Positions 4,130 through 63,833 of a stretch of DNA of 64,000 nt are shown here, one piece after another. Below the pieces are notes generated by a model. The model was not told the DNA's origin. It made no database searches and saw nothing but the letters and a program-made list of their open reading frames with translations. A program made the position numbers and the translations under genes. Source of the DNA: a virus. Location: the IMG/VR virus record IMGVR_UViG_3300032053_000034, positions 1-64,000 of that record; one strand, given 5' to 3'. Within the stretch, counting starts at the first letter, position 1. The number at the start of each line of letters is the position of its first letter.

Positions 4130-4402
4130 TTACTCTTTAATCCATTTTACACCGCCTGTTTTAGGTTGTGTAAATTCTAAAGATAGCACTGAATCAATGT
4201 ACTCGGCTTTTTCTTCTTCTGTCTTTAGTGTATCAAACTCCCTTTGTAAATTCAATGAGCTTGTACTCATGAACTCATCTTGTATTCCTTTTGGTAAGTC
4301 TTTCCCAGCTAATTTTACCACACCTTCACATACATAATGTCTGATTGATGCCTCTCTAGTCTCTGTTTTTGGTTGAATTTTAGAAATAATAACAAGTCCC
4401 AT
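4130..4402 (-). CDS. Hypothetical protein, first gene of left minus-strand run
   Basis: A 90-residue soluble protein starting MGLVIISKIQPKTETREASI, with one hydrophobic strand at the N-terminus and a charged helical centre (LQREFDTLKTEEEKAEYIDSVL). The start has the TC-ATG context. It is the first leftward gene after the 440-bp divergent region. On the minus strand a TATATTTC (4436-4429) lies 20 bases after a TTG (4459-4457), a weak match to a Bacteroidetes promoter. Function not recognised. Confidence 0.6.
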   Translation of the reverse strand: MGLVIISKIQPKTETREASIRHYVCEGVVKLAGKDLPKGIQDEFMSTSSLNLQREFDTLKTEEEKAEYIDSVLSLEFTQPKTGGVKWIKE

Positions 4403-4842
4403 GATTTTAGATTTTAAAGTTTAGTTTTGAAATATAACAAACACAGGGGGTGCAGGCAACGGGGTACTTCCTATCCAAGAAAATAAATATTTTTTATAAA
4501 TTTTTTTAGTCAATCTAGCTGCTGTGCTTTTTAAAGATCCCCACTCAGCTCTTCACCAGTGCATTAAATTGACTAGGGGGCTATGATGACATGAGTTTGA
4601 TAAAAGAGGGTTGTAGGGGGTTCTTTTTAGAGTGAGAGATAAGCTAAAAAGAAGAAAAAAGGAGTATAGAATAGAACAACTTGTAAGTAACTGAGTATCA
4701 GTACCAAGTTTTTCATTTTTTATGAGTAAGGTACACTCTGGGGGTGAGTAAGGAAATGGTTAAAACTATTCACAATATTTATGAGTATAATACTTTGAAT
4801 TAGAATTTAATTCACTATATTTGTGAGGTAATCAATAAGAAA
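4403..4842. other. Divergent non-coding region; candidate origin and regulatory region
   Basis: No convincing gene lies here. The plus strand carries four runs of five G (4446-4450, 4576-4580, 4616-4620, 4740-4744) in an otherwise AT-rich phage. An 8-bp inverted repeat (TAGTCAAT at 4507-4514, ATTGACTA at 4568-4575) brackets 53 bases, and a second one (CTTTTTAG at 4623-4630, CTAAAAAG at 4644-4651) forms a hairpin. A T-rich stretch runs from about 4490 to 4507. The region separates divergent transcripts and lies next to a RepL-like gene, so an origin of replication is a reasonable but unproved reading. Confidence 0.5.
4794..4823 (+). promoter_or_regulatory. Bacteroidetes-type promoter for the RepL-like gene
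   Basis: TTTG at 4794-4797 and TATATTTG at 4816-4823, separated by 18 bases, match the Bacteroidetes primary-sigma pattern (-33 TTTG, -7 TAnnTTTG). Transcription would begin a few bases after 4823, leaving a leader of roughly 15 nt before ATG 4843. Confidence 0.65.
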
Positions 4843-5310
4843 ATGAATTATAAAAAGAAGAAGTTTTCTGAATTGGGGCCACAATTTATTATTGTTTACT
4901 TGGAGAAGGTATCGGATATATCAAAGAAGTTAAATCCAACTGAGATAGAACTTCTTACCTGGATGTGGAAAGATTGTGTTACCCAAGGAGAAGAGCATCA
5001 CAATGTTGTTTATGCTCTTGCTCACAATAAGAATAAGTGGGCTGCAAGTATAGAGACTAAGGTTGGGGTAATTGAGAATGCAATAACATCACTTGTCTCT
5101 AATGGGTTTATTAAAAGGATTGGCAGAGGGGTTTATATTCTTAATCCGGAGTATTTCTATAAAGGCTCAAAGAATGGTAGATTTTCTTCTTTTGCTGATT
5201 ACAATAAACACATAACTGAAGAAGAGGTTGTTGTAGATGGTAAGACTAATCCACTATTAAGATCACCAGTTGATGAAGAAGCCAGAGAAAACAAAGCAGG
5301 AACTTATTAA
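4843..5310 (+). CDS. RepL-like winged-helix replication initiator or regulator
   Basis: A 155-residue protein with the layout of the plasmid RepL family: an N-terminal helix pair, a central winged-helix (about residues 30-100: NPTEIELLTWMWKD, then AASIETKVGVIENAITSL as recognition helix region), the wing VSNGFIKRIGRGVYILNP, and the family hallmark NP-x-YF-x-KGS at about residues 102-109. RepL proteins start plasmid replication, and RepL-like genes are reported in crAss-like phages. It is the first gene of the plus-strand run, directly after a promoter and the G-rich non-coding region. It may start replication from that region or act as a transcription factor. Confidence 0.65.
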   Translation: MNYKKKKFSELGPQFIIVYLEKVSDISKKLNPTEIELLTWMWKDCVTQGEEHHNVVYALAHNKNKWAASIETKVGVIENAITSLVSNGFIKRIGRGVYILNPEYFYKGSKNGRFSSFADYNKHITEEEVVVDGKTNPLLRSPVDEEARENKAGTY

Positions 5311-16227: not shown

Positions 16228-17388
16228 ATGAGCGATTTACCAAAAGAAGAAATTGGAAACGGAGAGTTTCTAAAGTCAAAAGCAATAACAGTTGATGGAT
16301 TCTTTGACGAGGGTGAGAACCAATTCCAAATGGAAGAAGTTGCATCTAAAGCAATTACACCAGAACCTGTAAAAGAAATTGCCGTTATTAAAGATAAAGG
16401 TGGTGATACTCCTCCTGAGTTTGGTGATAAAGCAGATGCGCCAAAGCCTGAGGTAAAACCTGAAGAGGATAATGAAGAAAAGAAAACATTCTTTGGTGAT
16501 GAACCTGGAGAAGAGGTAAATGCAGATGGCTTTAGTGTTCTTCCTATTATTGAGGTTATTCATGATAAGTTTGGATGGGACTTTGACGCAGATGCCTTTA
16601 AAGGGGCAGACCTTTCAAATGTTGATACTCTTACTGATTACATTACAAATATTATTGAAGAAAATTCTAAGCCAGAGTATGCCAATAATATTTCTGAAAG
16701 CTTTGATCAGTATTTAAGAAATGGCGGAAGGCCTGAGCAATTCTTAGAAAACTATAACTCAGAAACAGACTATACTGTTATAGATCTTGAGGATGAAAAC
16801 AACTTAAGAATGCTTGGTGTAGAGTATTACACAAAGACTGGGCAATCAGTTGAGGAGGCTGAGGAAACAGTAAAAGATTTGGAAGAATCAAATGCTCTTG
16901 CTAAGTTAGCTCCAAAGTTTGTAAAGCAATTAGACTCTTGGCAAAAGAGTGAGTCTGCGGCAAATGAAAAAGCAAGGCTTGATGCATTAAAAAGTGATTA
17001 TGAAGCTTCTGAAAAAGCTCTTGAAAATACCTACAACACCATCCAATCTAAAGATGAGATAGCTGGTTTACCATTTAAGAACAAGGCAGATAAGGATAAG
17101 TTTTTTGAGTTTGCTTATGTTCCTGATAAGAAGGGAGAAACAGCATATCAGAAAATGTTTAAGGCTGATCCAGAAATGGAACTTAAAATGCTTATGTTTG
17201 CGTATAGAGGTATTAGTAAGGAAAAGATATTAGCAATGTCTACAGATAAGGCTACCAAAGATCTAAGAGTAAACTTAGAGAAGTTTACAGATTCTCAATC
17301 TAAACATACTTCTTCTCTTAATAAAGATGGGAAGAGTAAGAGGTTAGCTCCTGAAGACTTTAATGCTAATGACTGGATTATGGAATAG
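16228..17388 (+). CDS. Candidate scaffolding protein
   Basis: A 386-residue acidic protein directly upstream of the major capsid gene, the usual place for a scaffold. Residues 60-105 are strongly acidic and proline-rich (PKPEVKPEEDNEEKKTFFGDE). The centre is helical with coiled-coil potential (EEAEETVKDLEESNALAKL, AANEKARLDALKSDYEASEKALE), and the C-terminal 60 residues are charged and serine-rich, as in scaffold capsid-binding tails. Scaffolds fill the prohead and leave or are degraded before packaging. The name rests on position, acidity and helical content. Confidence 0.65.
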   Translation: MSDLPKEEIGNGEFLKSKAITVDGFFDEGENQFQMEEVASKAITPEPVKEIAVIKDKGGDTPPEFGDKADAPKPEVKPEEDNEEKKTFFGDEPGEEVNADGFSVLPIIEVIHDKFGWDFDADAFKGADLSNVDTLTDYITNIIEENSKPEYANNISESFDQYLRNGGRPEQFLENYNSETDYTVIDLEDENNLRMLGVEYYTKTGQSVEEAEETVKDLEESNALAKLAPKFVKQLDSWQKSESAANEKARLDALKSDYEASEKALENTYNTIQSKDEIAGLPFKNKADKDKFFEFAYVPDKKGETAYQKMFKADPEMELKMLMFAYRGISKEKILAMSTDKATKDLRVNLEKFTDSQSKHTSSLNKDGKSKRLAPEDFNANDWIME

Positions 17389-23875: not shown

Positions 23876-26800
23876 ATGGCAACAAAACAAAAAGACGGAG
23901 GAAATATATCATATTCTAATATCCTTACTGGAGGTATGAATAAGGATGTGGACCCTTCTTTCCAACCTGAAAATACATATACTCTTGCTGAAGGGATGAC
24001 TGTCAGTAATAGAGAGCATGATGCTATGCTAGAAACTGAAGAAGGAAACTCTAGCGCCTTTGCATTACCAGACAATACAATACCTCGAGTTACTCCTTTA
24101 GACCCTGATGCTAATGTTATTGGGTCCACAACTATTGATAATTTGGTGTTTGTATTTTCGACTAATCCACTTGGAAGGGATTATATAACAATCTGCAATA
24201 AAACTGATGGCACTTCAAAATTAATTCGCGTAAATATTGACCCAACACTTCCTCCAGATGTGGTTTATAATCTTGGGTTTGATATAAACTTTCGTGTGAA
24301 AGCTGAGGCAAAGATTCTTTTTAATGGAGACATTGGGTTATACTTTACTGATAACTTAAACCCAATCAGGTATATCAGGGTAAAAAATAATGCCGGTGTT
24401 TATTCTGGATTCCTAGGTAAGCTTCTCTCTGGAGTATCAACTCCACTGATTGATGTATCTATGCAGGATGGTGGAGGGGCTATTGCGTGTTCTTCATATT
24501 TATTTGCCATTGGGTACACAGATGCTTCAGATACTGTTGTTGGGTATTCTACATTTACAAACCCATATCCTGTAGTGGATGATTATCTTCCTGGCCCAGG
24601 GAATATCCCAGTGTTTGATGGAGCTTATAATGATGTAAAAGCAAATAAGATATTTGAACTAACAATTAATGAGGCAGCATTTGATCCTTCTTATGTTAGC
24701 TTTAAAATTGCACTGATAACATTTATTGGTTTCTCAAATACTCCAAGTGTATTTCTTCTTGATGTTCCATACAGGGCAAGATTTATTGCTGGTAAAATGA
24801 ATATTCAGATTACCGGTAATGAACCTTCAACTCAAATATCATTAGCAGAAGTTACTATTCCATTTGCTGATTATAGATATGCAAAAGAAGTCGCTCAGTT
24901 ATATAACAGATTACTGTTTGCTAATCTTAGAAAAGAAGATCTTCCAATTGATTTTGAAGCTATTGCTAATGCAATTAGTTTAACTCCTTGGCAAAAGCCA
25001 ATTGATACCAATATTGTTGAATACAATGGTACTGGTGGATACAAGGATGGTGGTACTTGTGTTACCAATAAGTCATATATGCGCGATGAAGTATATTCAT
25101 TTGCCATAGTATTTATTATAGATGAAACAACAGAAACCAATGCTTATCATATTGCTGCACCAAAAGTATCTGCTTCTCCAATAATTTATGGACAGAAATA
25201 TCCACCAGCTTCACCTGGAACATTTGGGACTTACTACGCTAGTCAACAACAATACAAGACTGGATCTCCATATTTTACTGGACTAGAAGATGACCATGTT
25301 AGGTATCATGTTATTCCTAAGTATGACTTAATGCAGTCTGGCTCTGATCATGTTGTTATGGCCATTGGTGTAAATGTTACTAATGTTGCCAATGCATTAT
25401 TGCTTATTCCAGACCCTCTATTAAGAGCAAGAATTACTGGATATAGATTGGTTAGAAGACAGAGAAATAATGACTCAAATAAAACCATTGTCTCTCAAGG
25501 TCTTATTCAGAAGTATATTCAGGATCTTAATTGGGGAGGCTTTAGTGGAAACCAAACAAGATGTAACACTGCATTTGGATACCCAGAGAATTCAAGCCAG
25601 TTTGAAATTGCACTTAACAATGCACAGATTGGTTTTTCATCAGTCACAATAGAAGGAAGAGTTATTCTGTATCAAATGTCTCCTGGTACTTTAAATGCAA
25701 ATTTAAGAGCAAAGCAAATTTGTGGTTTTATTTCACCAGAAACAGTGTTTGGACAAAGCACTTCATTGCAGGTTTCCAAGATTAGACCAGAAAGAGCTAT
25801 TGGTACTCCGGTAATTAATTCCTATGGATATGGCCTAAATATTGATGGCTCTTGGAATTACGTCACCCAGGGCAGTACTGATAATTATAATCTTGGCACA
25901 AATACAGAGTTTACTTGGTACACTCCTGGCGTAGAGGTTGTTAACAATCTTTTTGCAAAGATTGATAAAACTGTAACTATAGATCAGTACTGGATAAATC
26001 CAGCCAATAGTTTACTTCAACCATCTACACTGATGGATCAGTTTGGTACTCAGTTTGGGATTGGAACTGTTAGTTTAATCTCATTGCCTGTACAGACAAA
26101 TCACCTTGGTATAAATTTAAGGCAAAATCCAACTGATGATATTAACAATAGATTGTTACTGTATAATGGTGGATGGGCTGACAGTTATGTTATGAATCTT
26201 GAAAATGAGAATCCAAACTGTTATACAACATTGTATTCATCTGAGTATATTAGTTGTGAGTTAATACCGACTATTGCAGATGCATATATTCTTGGAGGAG
26301 ATACATTCATTTCTAGGTTTACAGCTGTTAATCAAATACCAAAATATGTTGATGATGGGGCTTCAAAAACTCTTGGAGCATGGGCTGGCGGTGTTGGTAC
26401 TTATATTGAAAGCCAGTATAACTGTGACTTAAGACATAGGTTAACTAGTAATAATGGTAGTCAAAAGGCAACTCCTTATGTTGATTATATTTCCAATGAC
26501 AGGTTTATTGATACATTTAGAAATACCTTTTTTAAGAGATATGGTATTCAAGACTCCACTTATAATGACGCGTACTCTGCAGAAAACAATTTTAATATTT
26601 GGTTAACAAAGTCTGAGTTCTTTGACCAAGTATTTAACTTTGCTGATAGGATTATTTATTCTGATCAGTCAATTGAAGGTGAAGGTACTGATAGGTATTT
26701 AATATTTAGACAAAATAATTACAAGGATATTCCTAAAAATAGAGGGCCAATCTGGAATTTGTTTGCCTATGACAATGATATTTATGCGCAATGCATAAGT

Positions 26801-55710: not shown

Positions 55711-55752
55711 AAAAAAAAATCCCCTAACCAATTAAGGCTAGGGGATTTTTTA
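55711..55752. terminator. Bidirectional terminator between convergent operons
   Basis: Stem AATCCCCTA with TAGGGGATT plus an inner CC/GG pair and loop AATTAA, flanked by a run of nine A on the left and T-run on the right, so it can end transcripts from both strands. It lies between the last plus-strand gene (ends 55709) and the spanin gene, whose stop lies in the T-run. Confidence 0.85.
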
Positions 55753-62306: not shown

Positions 62307-63130
62307 TATAAATCAAATTCACTTAGTGGTACAAATCCCTCCCCTATACCAGTAACAACTTCTTTCCCTTGTTTATTAAGAGGTAAAGACGGATTAATAG
62401 TTCTTAATACTCCTCTGGAATGAGATCCATAATTAACAAGTATTCCATTAATAAATCTTTGCTTAATCTCTTCAATAATATTTTTTGGTATAGTATCAAT
62501 TCTATGCCCATCTCTTTCCAGGCAAAATGTAGATTTCTGTCTGTATAACTGATCAATATTGTCTTTTGCTATTATTGGAATGTTTTGGTTTTCTGCAATA
62601 CTCCAGTAATATGAAAATTCACGTTGTGAAGGCTTAGTAATCCTAGTATAACTTGTCTTAGCCACATATACAATTCCTTCATTTGTGAAACTGCCAGTAG
62701 TAAGCATTTGATATATTATCCTTTTTGCTTCTGAAGCTCTTACAAACATATCAATATATGGATCACCACCTCTTGAAAAACATGTATATACATTTGCTCC
62801 AATAAAAGTAATTCCATATTGACTTAACCTTCCTGACATAGAATCTTCTCTTGAAGATTTCGCGTTTATCATTGCAAAAGGGATACTAGTCCCGGTGACC
62901 CTCATCCTTCCAATATTAGTAGTTTCAAGATCACTAATAAACATGTCTATATCACTTTCTGTTAAATTAATAAGGAGTTCTTCACTAGAATTAACCTCTT
63001 TTACAAACATGGCAATCATGTATAAATCTATAGCCGTAAGCCATACTTTCTTATAATCAACATGCTTTGATTCATCAGGGTTAAAAACAATATTTTCACT
63101 ACCCTTTAATATGTCTTGGAGGCTATACAT
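62306..63130 (-). CDS. Unknown partner of the ThiF-like protein
   Basis: A 274-residue protein overlapping the ThiF-like gene by 8 nt and the RusA-like gene by TAATG. It begins with a helical stretch (WLTAIDLYMIAMFVKEVNSS), then shows strands with glycines (FIGANVYTCFSRGGDPYIDM), a conserved-looking YVAKTSYTRITKP segment and basic helices (NIIEEIKQRFINGILVNYG). In PRTRC-type loci the ThiF gene neighbours E2-like proteins, but no E2 active-site pattern is visible here. Function not recognised; close coupling suggests it works with the ThiF-like protein. Confidence 0.6.
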   Translation of the reverse strand: MYSLQDILKGSENIVFNPDESKHVDYKKVWLTAIDLYMIAMFVKEVNSSEELLINLTESDIDMFISDLETTNIGRMRVTGTSIPFAMINAKSSREDSMSGRLSQYGITFIGANVYTCFSRGGDPYIDMFVRASEAKRIIYQMLTTGSFTNEGIVYVAKTSYTRITKPSQREFSYYWSIAENQNIPIIAKDNIDQLYRQKSTFCLERDGHRIDTIPKNIIEEIKQRFINGILVNYGSHSRGVLRTINPSLPLNKQGKEVVTGIGEGFVPLSEFDL

Positions 63131-63833
63131 AAGTTTTGGCTATGTCTAATTGTTGCAAATTAACATAACAATGAAATGGTACATCTAAGATAGTCATGCC
63201 ATTAATCTTGTTGGAGATTAAATTGTTAATTGCTGCCATTCCAAGACTAGTAATCAATGTTGCATTGTGAGTGGTTGCCTTGGCATTACATGGTAATTCC
63301 TCAGCATCATCATCAGAAAACAATGATTTAGCATACTCATTTGCTTGAGCACCATTAGTAATAAGAAAGAATTCAGAATGTTGAGGCGAACTTCTAAAGT
63401 CAATAAAGAACCTATGCTTAGGAGTTGTTCCAGCAGCTTTATGTTCCATTTGCTTTTTAACCCAAAGCTCATAATACATCTTTCTGTACTTCATGCTATC
63501 TACTGCAGAAACAAAGCAATCACCAATATCTGCTGTAGTTGTTGGTACAAAATACCCAGCATGAGCTTGAGTTGAAACATCACTACCAGAGAATAGTTTA
63601 ATATTGCTTGCTAGTGCAGTTGCTTTGTTTGCTGATAAATTATGTACACCACAGAACTGAGCTGATATATTTTGGACCGAGTATAGGTCATTGTCCCATA
63701 ACTCAAGCAGGTGTCCAATCCTGCTTAAATATAGGGACATCCATGATCCTATCATACCACATCCAATTACTTGTATTTTGAGTTTACTTACGGACCACTC
63801 AAAAGCACTAAACCTTTTGTTTGCAGTACTCAT
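63123..63833 (-). CDS. ThiF/E1-like adenylyltransferase-fold protein (PRTRC ThiF-like)
   Basis: A 236-residue Rossmann-fold protein. GCGMIGS (residues 24-30) is the nucleotide-binding loop; LWDNDLYSVQNISAQF carries D47, D49 and N55 at the positions of the E1 D-x-D-x6-N motif; K70 and D112 (SAVDSMKYR) occupy the expected lysine and magnesium-site places. The arginine of the usual N-L-x-R-Q is alanine (A58). No CxxC zinc pairs or clear catalytic cysteine. The end (CYVNLQQLDI) recalls PRTRC-system ThiF proteins. It may activate or bind a carboxyl end or nucleotide; substrate unknown. Confidence 0.65.
   Translation of the reverse strand: MSTANKRFSAFEWSVSKLKIQVIGCGMIGSWMSLYLSRIGHLLELWDNDLYSVQNISAQFCGVHNLSANKATALASNIKLFSGSDVSTQAHAGYFVPTTTADIGDCFVSAVDSMKYRKMYYELWVKKQMEHKAAGTTPKHRFFIDFRSSPQHSEFFLITNGAQANEYAKSLFSDDDAEELPCNAKATTHNATLITSLGMAAINNLISNKINGMTILDVPFHCYVNLQQLDIAKTYV

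Follow-up and report, generated by a model that had tools for sequence, protein, structure and literature searches.

A candidate RepL-type replication origin joined to the repL promoter at the divergent junction of a crAss-like phage genome

The replication mode of crAss-like phages was described as unknown in a 2023 review (PMC10136315), whilst earlier work had already reported RepL in such phages and put forward the phage-plasmid idea (PMC7551546, PMC11652158). The locus considered here raises the question in a specific form: does the non-coding stretch of 440 bp directly upstream of a repL-like gene act as a replication origin, or does it serve to control that gene? A sequence-only reading of this DNA had proposed an origin, based on the RepL-like protein, the unusual length of the gap, four G5 runs and two inverted repeats. 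Our analysis retains the candidate origin, although on partly different grounds: the family match of the protein, its homologues on small plasmids, the skew minimum and, above all, short repeats phased to the DNA helix speak for it, whilst the G runs and inverted repeats have turned out to be weak. Our search of the open-access literature found no account of phased repeats preceding repL in crAss-like phages.

The phage genome and its divergent junction

The window, by which we mean the whole stretch of DNA that was analysed, covers positions 1 to 64,000 of a virus record that is 81,375 bp long. Comparison of the two record ends with one another revealed an imperfect overlap, so that the map is probably circular with a length of ~80.1 kb. 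Within this overlap (1–1332 versus 80106–81375 of the record, the latter being L002 16106–17375), a divergent middle part lies between near-identical flanks (1–177 and 1066–1332, 95% and 97% identical), an arrangement that could come from the joining of two variants of the locus at circularisation or from a diverged duplication. The terminase matches the crAss-like terminase family phrog_6681 in a profile search (355 bits) and finds its best tblastn matches in Crassvirales records, with ~35% identity to named phages; the protein encoded at 23876–27889 matches the crAss muzzle family PF25731 (158 bits). Judged by these proteins, the source is a crAss-like phage (Crassvirales) that is distant from the named ones. 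No close relatives of the whole region were found, with terminase and MCP searches leading to fragments or distant loci only.

The leftward arm of the genome codes for a DnaG-like primase, a RecT-like protein, a DnaB-like helicase and an SF2 helicase. Neither Pfam models nor the p-crAssphage polymerase identified a family A or B DNA polymerase in the record, including the leftward arm at 55750–75439, an absence that is provisional because the same models also fail to match in several other crAss-like phages. No leftward-arm ORF exceeds 437 aa, and together with the missing polymerase match this makes reliance on a host polymerase plausible, as a plasmid initiator would arrange. A plasmid lifestyle is without support here, since PF13614 (ParA-like), PF02195 (ParB) and PF00589 (tyrosine integrase) gave 0 matches, which with one model each is weak evidence. 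Two further proteins were noted in passing: a ThiF/E1-like protein at 63123–63833 on the minus strand (PF00899, 38 bits), situated among the replication genes, and a candidate GroES-like small protein, recognised by eye, at 74159–74500 of the record on the minus strand (L002 10159–10500).

The two gene arms diverge from a junction with the following features:

4130–4402, minus strand: first gene of the leftward arm, 90 aa, without a family match in profile searches
4403–4842, no strand: divergent non-coding junction, 440 bp, candidate origin/promoter region
4446–4744, plus strand: four G5 runs, starting at 4446, 4576, 4616 and 4740
4480–4508, no strand: A/T-only run of 29 nt, the longest in the 80-kb genome, candidate DNA-unwinding element
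4507–4517/4565–4575 (4507–4575), no strand: inverted repeat, 11 nt, 91%, with a 47-nt loop
4621–4630/4644–4653 (4621–4653), no strand: inverted repeat, 10 nt, perfect, with a 13-nt loop
4843–5310, plus strand: repL-like gene, 155 aa, winged-helix protein, heading the rightward (late/structural) arm

The length of the gap and the divergence of the genes on either side of it (4130–4402 on the minus and 4843–5310 on the plus strand) were confirmed by measurement, and the gap proved to be the largest intergenic one in the ~80-kb genome. The GC-skew analysis that had been suggested as a check was run on the whole genome, and the cumulative minima fall at the junction (GC 4558, AT 4628, purine 4565). 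However, the skew flips exactly where the gene direction flips: because the two changes coincide, skew alone is unusable as evidence of replication, and it was rejected as independent proof of an origin on the grounds that it is fully confounded with gene direction.

The G5 cluster is real, in that the 80-kb genome has 16 G5/C5 runs, 4 of them in the junction, and at least four G5 runs were obtained in 0 of 2000 dinucleotide shuffles (mean 0.44). As evidence for an origin it is weak, since it is mostly not common to the relatives: the cluster is absent upstream of repL in most of those checked, with MT835539 alone exhibiting G6 and G9 runs. A G-quadruplex or G-run origin element was rejected for this lack of conservation and for the distances of 40–130 bp between the runs. 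Both inverted repeats exist as they had been read, but they are near chance (10-bp perfect repeat at 4621–4653: borderline against shuffles, P 0.05). Three other candidates were also rejected: a structured RNA at the junction, for which no Rfam match came near the threshold; iterons in the form of short k-mers across the gap, whose enrichment was not significant (6-mers, P 0.18); and DnaA boxes (two one-mismatch matches, 0 exact).

The RepL-like protein and the phased boxes upstream of its gene

The protein encoded at 4843–5310 bears the NP-x-YF-x-KG hallmark, in the form NPEYFYKG, and matches PF05732 (RepL) with 26.9 bits against a curated cut-off of 20.3, in agreement with its earlier naming as RepL-like. 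This match covers residues 66–128 only, corresponding to profile positions 81–143 of 164; the N-terminal stretch of the relatives' RepL proteins, a part that is seen in several members and not required by the Pfam model, is shortened in the window protein. In tblastn searches the protein matched RepL of Dulem virus 41 (E 5e-7) and RepL of a Priestia plasmid (E 3e-3) that is 3251 bp in size and has repL as its sole annotated gene. An AlphaFold prediction exhibits the expected winged-helix-like core, with a mean pLDDT of 88–96 in residues 31–40 and 61–100, and leaves the C-terminal third unmodelled. A PDB sequence search gave no match, and a fold search with the model returned generic winged helices, mostly transcription regulators: matches this generic leave the function of the protein undecided on structural grounds.

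Directly upstream of the gene we identified three elements, of which the two boxes form a phased pair of repeats:

4768–4785, plus strand: candidate RepL box 1, ATTCACAATATTTATGAG, 18 bp
4794–4823, plus strand: Bacteroidetes-type promoter for repL, TTTG-N18-TATATTTG, 19 bp before the start codon
4810–4827, plus strand: candidate RepL box 2, ATTCACTATATTTGTGAG, 18 bp, overlapping the promoter −7 element

These phased 18-bp repeats, the promoter at 4794–4823 and the A/T-only run at 4480–4508, which stands 260 bp from box 1, had all been missed in the sequence-only reading. The boxes are identical in 16 of 18 positions and are spaced by exactly 42 bp, which amounts to four helical turns and hence places them on one side of the DNA. 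Within the 250 bp upstream of repL, an equally good pair arose in 1 of 500 dinucleotide shuffles when any spacing from 12 to 70 was allowed, and in 0 of 500 at phased spacings. The boxes are also the sole close repeat pair of such quality near two or four helical turns in the 80-kb genome, in which no further copy within 3 mismatches was found. A third candidate in the window matches at 13 of 18 positions, at a non-phased 59 bp. A tandem array of at least three copies at 21/22 bp was not found before the window repL, which has its two good copies; such arrays are typical for RepL-type origins without being universal, as pMOS6 has two copies.

The promoter begins between the boxes, with its −7 element inside box 2 and box 1 lying upstream of its −33 element. 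TTTG-N18-TATATTTG has 2 exact matches in 64 kb versus 3.5 expected by chance: because this count is at chance level, the promoter call rests on its position just 5' of the start codon. Relative to that codon the boxes span −75 to −16, whilst most plasmid arrays are found at −130 to −250. A stretch of 52 bp elsewhere in the window (16629–16680, minus strand, antisense within a gene of the virion arm) is 81% identical to 4790–4840 on the plus strand (E 7e-5) and hence resembles the region of the repL promoter, box 2 included; this likeness may be due to chance.

RepL loci in other crAss-like phages and on plasmids

Searches for related RepL proteins led to Dulem virus 41, MT835539, the viral contigs L033, L034 and L035 and the Clostridium-binned contig L044; these relatives are few and were gathered by pattern search, with gene starts taken from annotation or from the longest ORF. 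RepL was present in 4 of 16 crAss-like phage records tested. In the window, Dulem virus 41, MT835539, L033 and L035, repL is the first rightward gene at a divergent junction; of the two repL copies in CrAssphage LMMB, one lies near its junction, and the L034 locus is not divergent. In three whole or nearly whole genomes (the window genome, Dulem virus 41 and G001, the genome behind L033) the gap before repL is the largest of the genome and the purine-skew minimum lies 26–560 bp from the repL start. No such skew agreement is seen in MT835539, which is a fragment and has long regions without ORFs when read with the standard code. These regions extend over several kilobases in its late arm (L065–L067), which suggests stop-codon reassignment. 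In Dulem virus 41, a GroEL gene directly follows repL as annotated (L003 8416–9912).

For 21 repL or repL-like genes, the best 18-bp direct repeat was then determined in the 250 bp that precede each gene; the set consisted of seven phage-type loci including the window, the two p-crAssphage copies and 12 plasmids. L044 was placed in the phage-type group by its protein only, and some plasmid proteins that fall below the Pfam cut-off, such as that of a 2460-bp E. coli plasmid, were included on BLAST similarity. The best repeat occurs at 20–22 or 41–43 bp in 16 of the 21 loci, compared to ~2 expected under random spacing; the choice of 18 bp and of the spacing range was made with the window pair and the first relatives already in view, and it is the later plasmids that make this a partly independent test. 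Arrays of 3–14 copies are frequent among these upstream regions and are often perfect on plasmids (four copies in two E. coli plasmids, 2460 and 4786 bp in size, and three in a plasmid from a cyanobacterium), with the Erwinia plasmid pETR003-a (L046) exhibiting 14 near-perfect 22-bp repeats from about −388 to −102 relative to repL. In the comparison of relatives for conserved iterons, which had been proposed as a further check, the phased spacing (21/22 or 42 bp) is kept while the repeat sequences differ between replicons. This combination is what would be expected of binding sites that co-evolve with one initiator family. The window is a variant of this layout, with two boxes that lie four turns apart and overlap the promoter.

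In four crAss-like phages without RepL, phased repeats at the junction with the skew minimum were not significant (P 0.05–0.97, with crAss001 borderline), whereas three RepL-bearing genomes tested in the same way displayed a phased repeat (P ≤ 0.003); in two further RepL-less crAss-like genomes no clear junction was found. Upstream of either p-crAssphage repL copy there was no clear phased repeat. Similar inverted repeats (CTCCCCGT-GAGGATG) are present upstream of both repL copies of CrAssphage LMMB (L025 10600–10618/10722–10740; L018 28257–28286/28358–28387) and are possibly an element of p-crAssphage's own that is linked to RepL.

Origin, operator and comparison with known systems

We consider it probable, with some reserve, that 4403–4842 is an iteron-like RepL-type replication origin joined to the repL promoter. 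RepL would be expressed from the promoter at 4794–4823 and, probably as dimers, bind the 18-bp boxes at 4768 and 4810; A/T-rich DNA nearby, for which 4480–4508 is the best candidate, would open, and the DnaB-like helicase and DnaG-like primase of the phage could then be loaded. Since no phage DNA polymerase was found, DNA would presumably be synthesised by the host polymerase. Forks leaving the junction would run co-directionally with both gene arms, and because box 2 overlaps the −7 element, bound RepL would be expected to limit its own synthesis. The PF05732 match above the cut-off, the small plasmid with repL as its sole annotated gene, the 16 of 21 phased loci, the pMOS6 replicon, the gap and purine-skew agreement in three RepL-bearing genomes, the A/T-only run, the phage's own primase and helicases and the RepL-less controls argue for such an origin; the presence of two boxes at 42 bp in place of a 21/22-bp tandem array, the promoter overlap and short distance to the start codon, as would be seen for an operator, the confounding of skew with gene direction, the report of a RepL plasmid without iterons and the lack of a clear phased repeat in p-crAssphage, even though this is the best-known RepL-bearing crAss-like phage, argue against it.

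The strongest objection is that the boxes are operators only, belonging to a winged-helix autoregulator or a switch of the late arm, with replication starting elsewhere. We regard this as rather unlikely, albeit deserving serious attention: the −7 element overlaps with box 2 and the −33 element is preceded by box 1, the late arm starts with repL, and the best structural matches of this generic winged helix are transcription regulators. Yet the family match is to RepL and not to a repressor family, the same phased layout is found on small plasmids for which repL is the one replication gene annotated, and it was not significant at the junctions of the RepL-less crAss-like phages tested. A role in autoregulation is moreover compatible with one as an origin, and both may hold. 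It is quite improbable that RepL is a true initiator acting at an origin within or downstream of the repL gene, as postulated for phage P1: oriL does map within P1 repL (PMC9948254), but P1 RepL is outside PF05732 and neither P1 repL nor its surroundings contain a phased repeat. Least probable is a vestigial repL, left from a plasmid in a phage that uses another origin via recombination or host functions; the absence of RepL from most crAss-like phages tested does imply that the order can replicate without it, but the window repL is intact with a good promoter match, and its junction position and phased repeats recur in divergent phages.

What the origin reading offers is a candidate of 440 bp with two short boxes, in a layout mirrored on small plasmids. 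If it is true, a widespread gut phage order would be tied to a plasmid replication system, a portable origin would become available for Bacteroidales tools, and repeats that precede repL at intervals of two or four turns would be a signature by which to find origins in uncultured phages. Only tentatively do we extend this to a polymerase-less crAss-like lineage that would replicate lytically from a junction RepL origin with the host polymerase and RepL self-regulation, and to boxes at two or four turns as a general signature of RepL replicons.

Phage P1 resembles the window system in the name RepL, as a case of a phage lytic initiator and in the AT-rich element that is needed, but differs in the family of its protein, in an origin reported inside the gene and in the lack of phased repeats: without a PF05732 match in P1 RepL, the two proteins have a common name and not a common family, and P1 oriL, although often cited, was rejected as a family precedent. 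In the case of p-crAssphage (Carjivirus communis), for which two RepL copies and the phage-plasmid idea have been published (PMC7551546, PMC11652158), we again find a crAss-like phage with RepL and one copy near a divergent junction; unlike in the window, there are two repL copies, the junction copy is on the side of the replication arm, clear upstream phased repeats are missing and the phage has its own family-B polymerase. Dulem virus 41 (PP511520) shares with the window RepL at a divergent junction, the largest gap and the purine-skew minimum, and has repeats at 21 bp, whilst its junction of 1036 bp, its different repeat sequence and its family-A polymerase match set it apart. Amongst RepL plasmids, pWestmill 11 from C. 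coli was reported to be without iterons (PMC11389370). In pMOS6 from Paracoccus, a single RepL-family protein suffices for the minimal replicon, and oriV lies upstream of rep with two 18-bp iteron-like repeats that are 3 bp apart, i.e. at a 21-bp spacing (PMC3832669). The likeness to the window comprises the PF05732 initiator, 18-bp repeats at whole helical turns directly 5' of rep and, for the window as a candidate, an origin that adjoins the gene; pMOS6 has two identical copies at 21 bp, the window two imperfect ones at 42 bp that overlap the promoter, and unlike the RepL plasmids, the window replicon is part of an 80-kb phage genome that itself encodes a primase and helicases.
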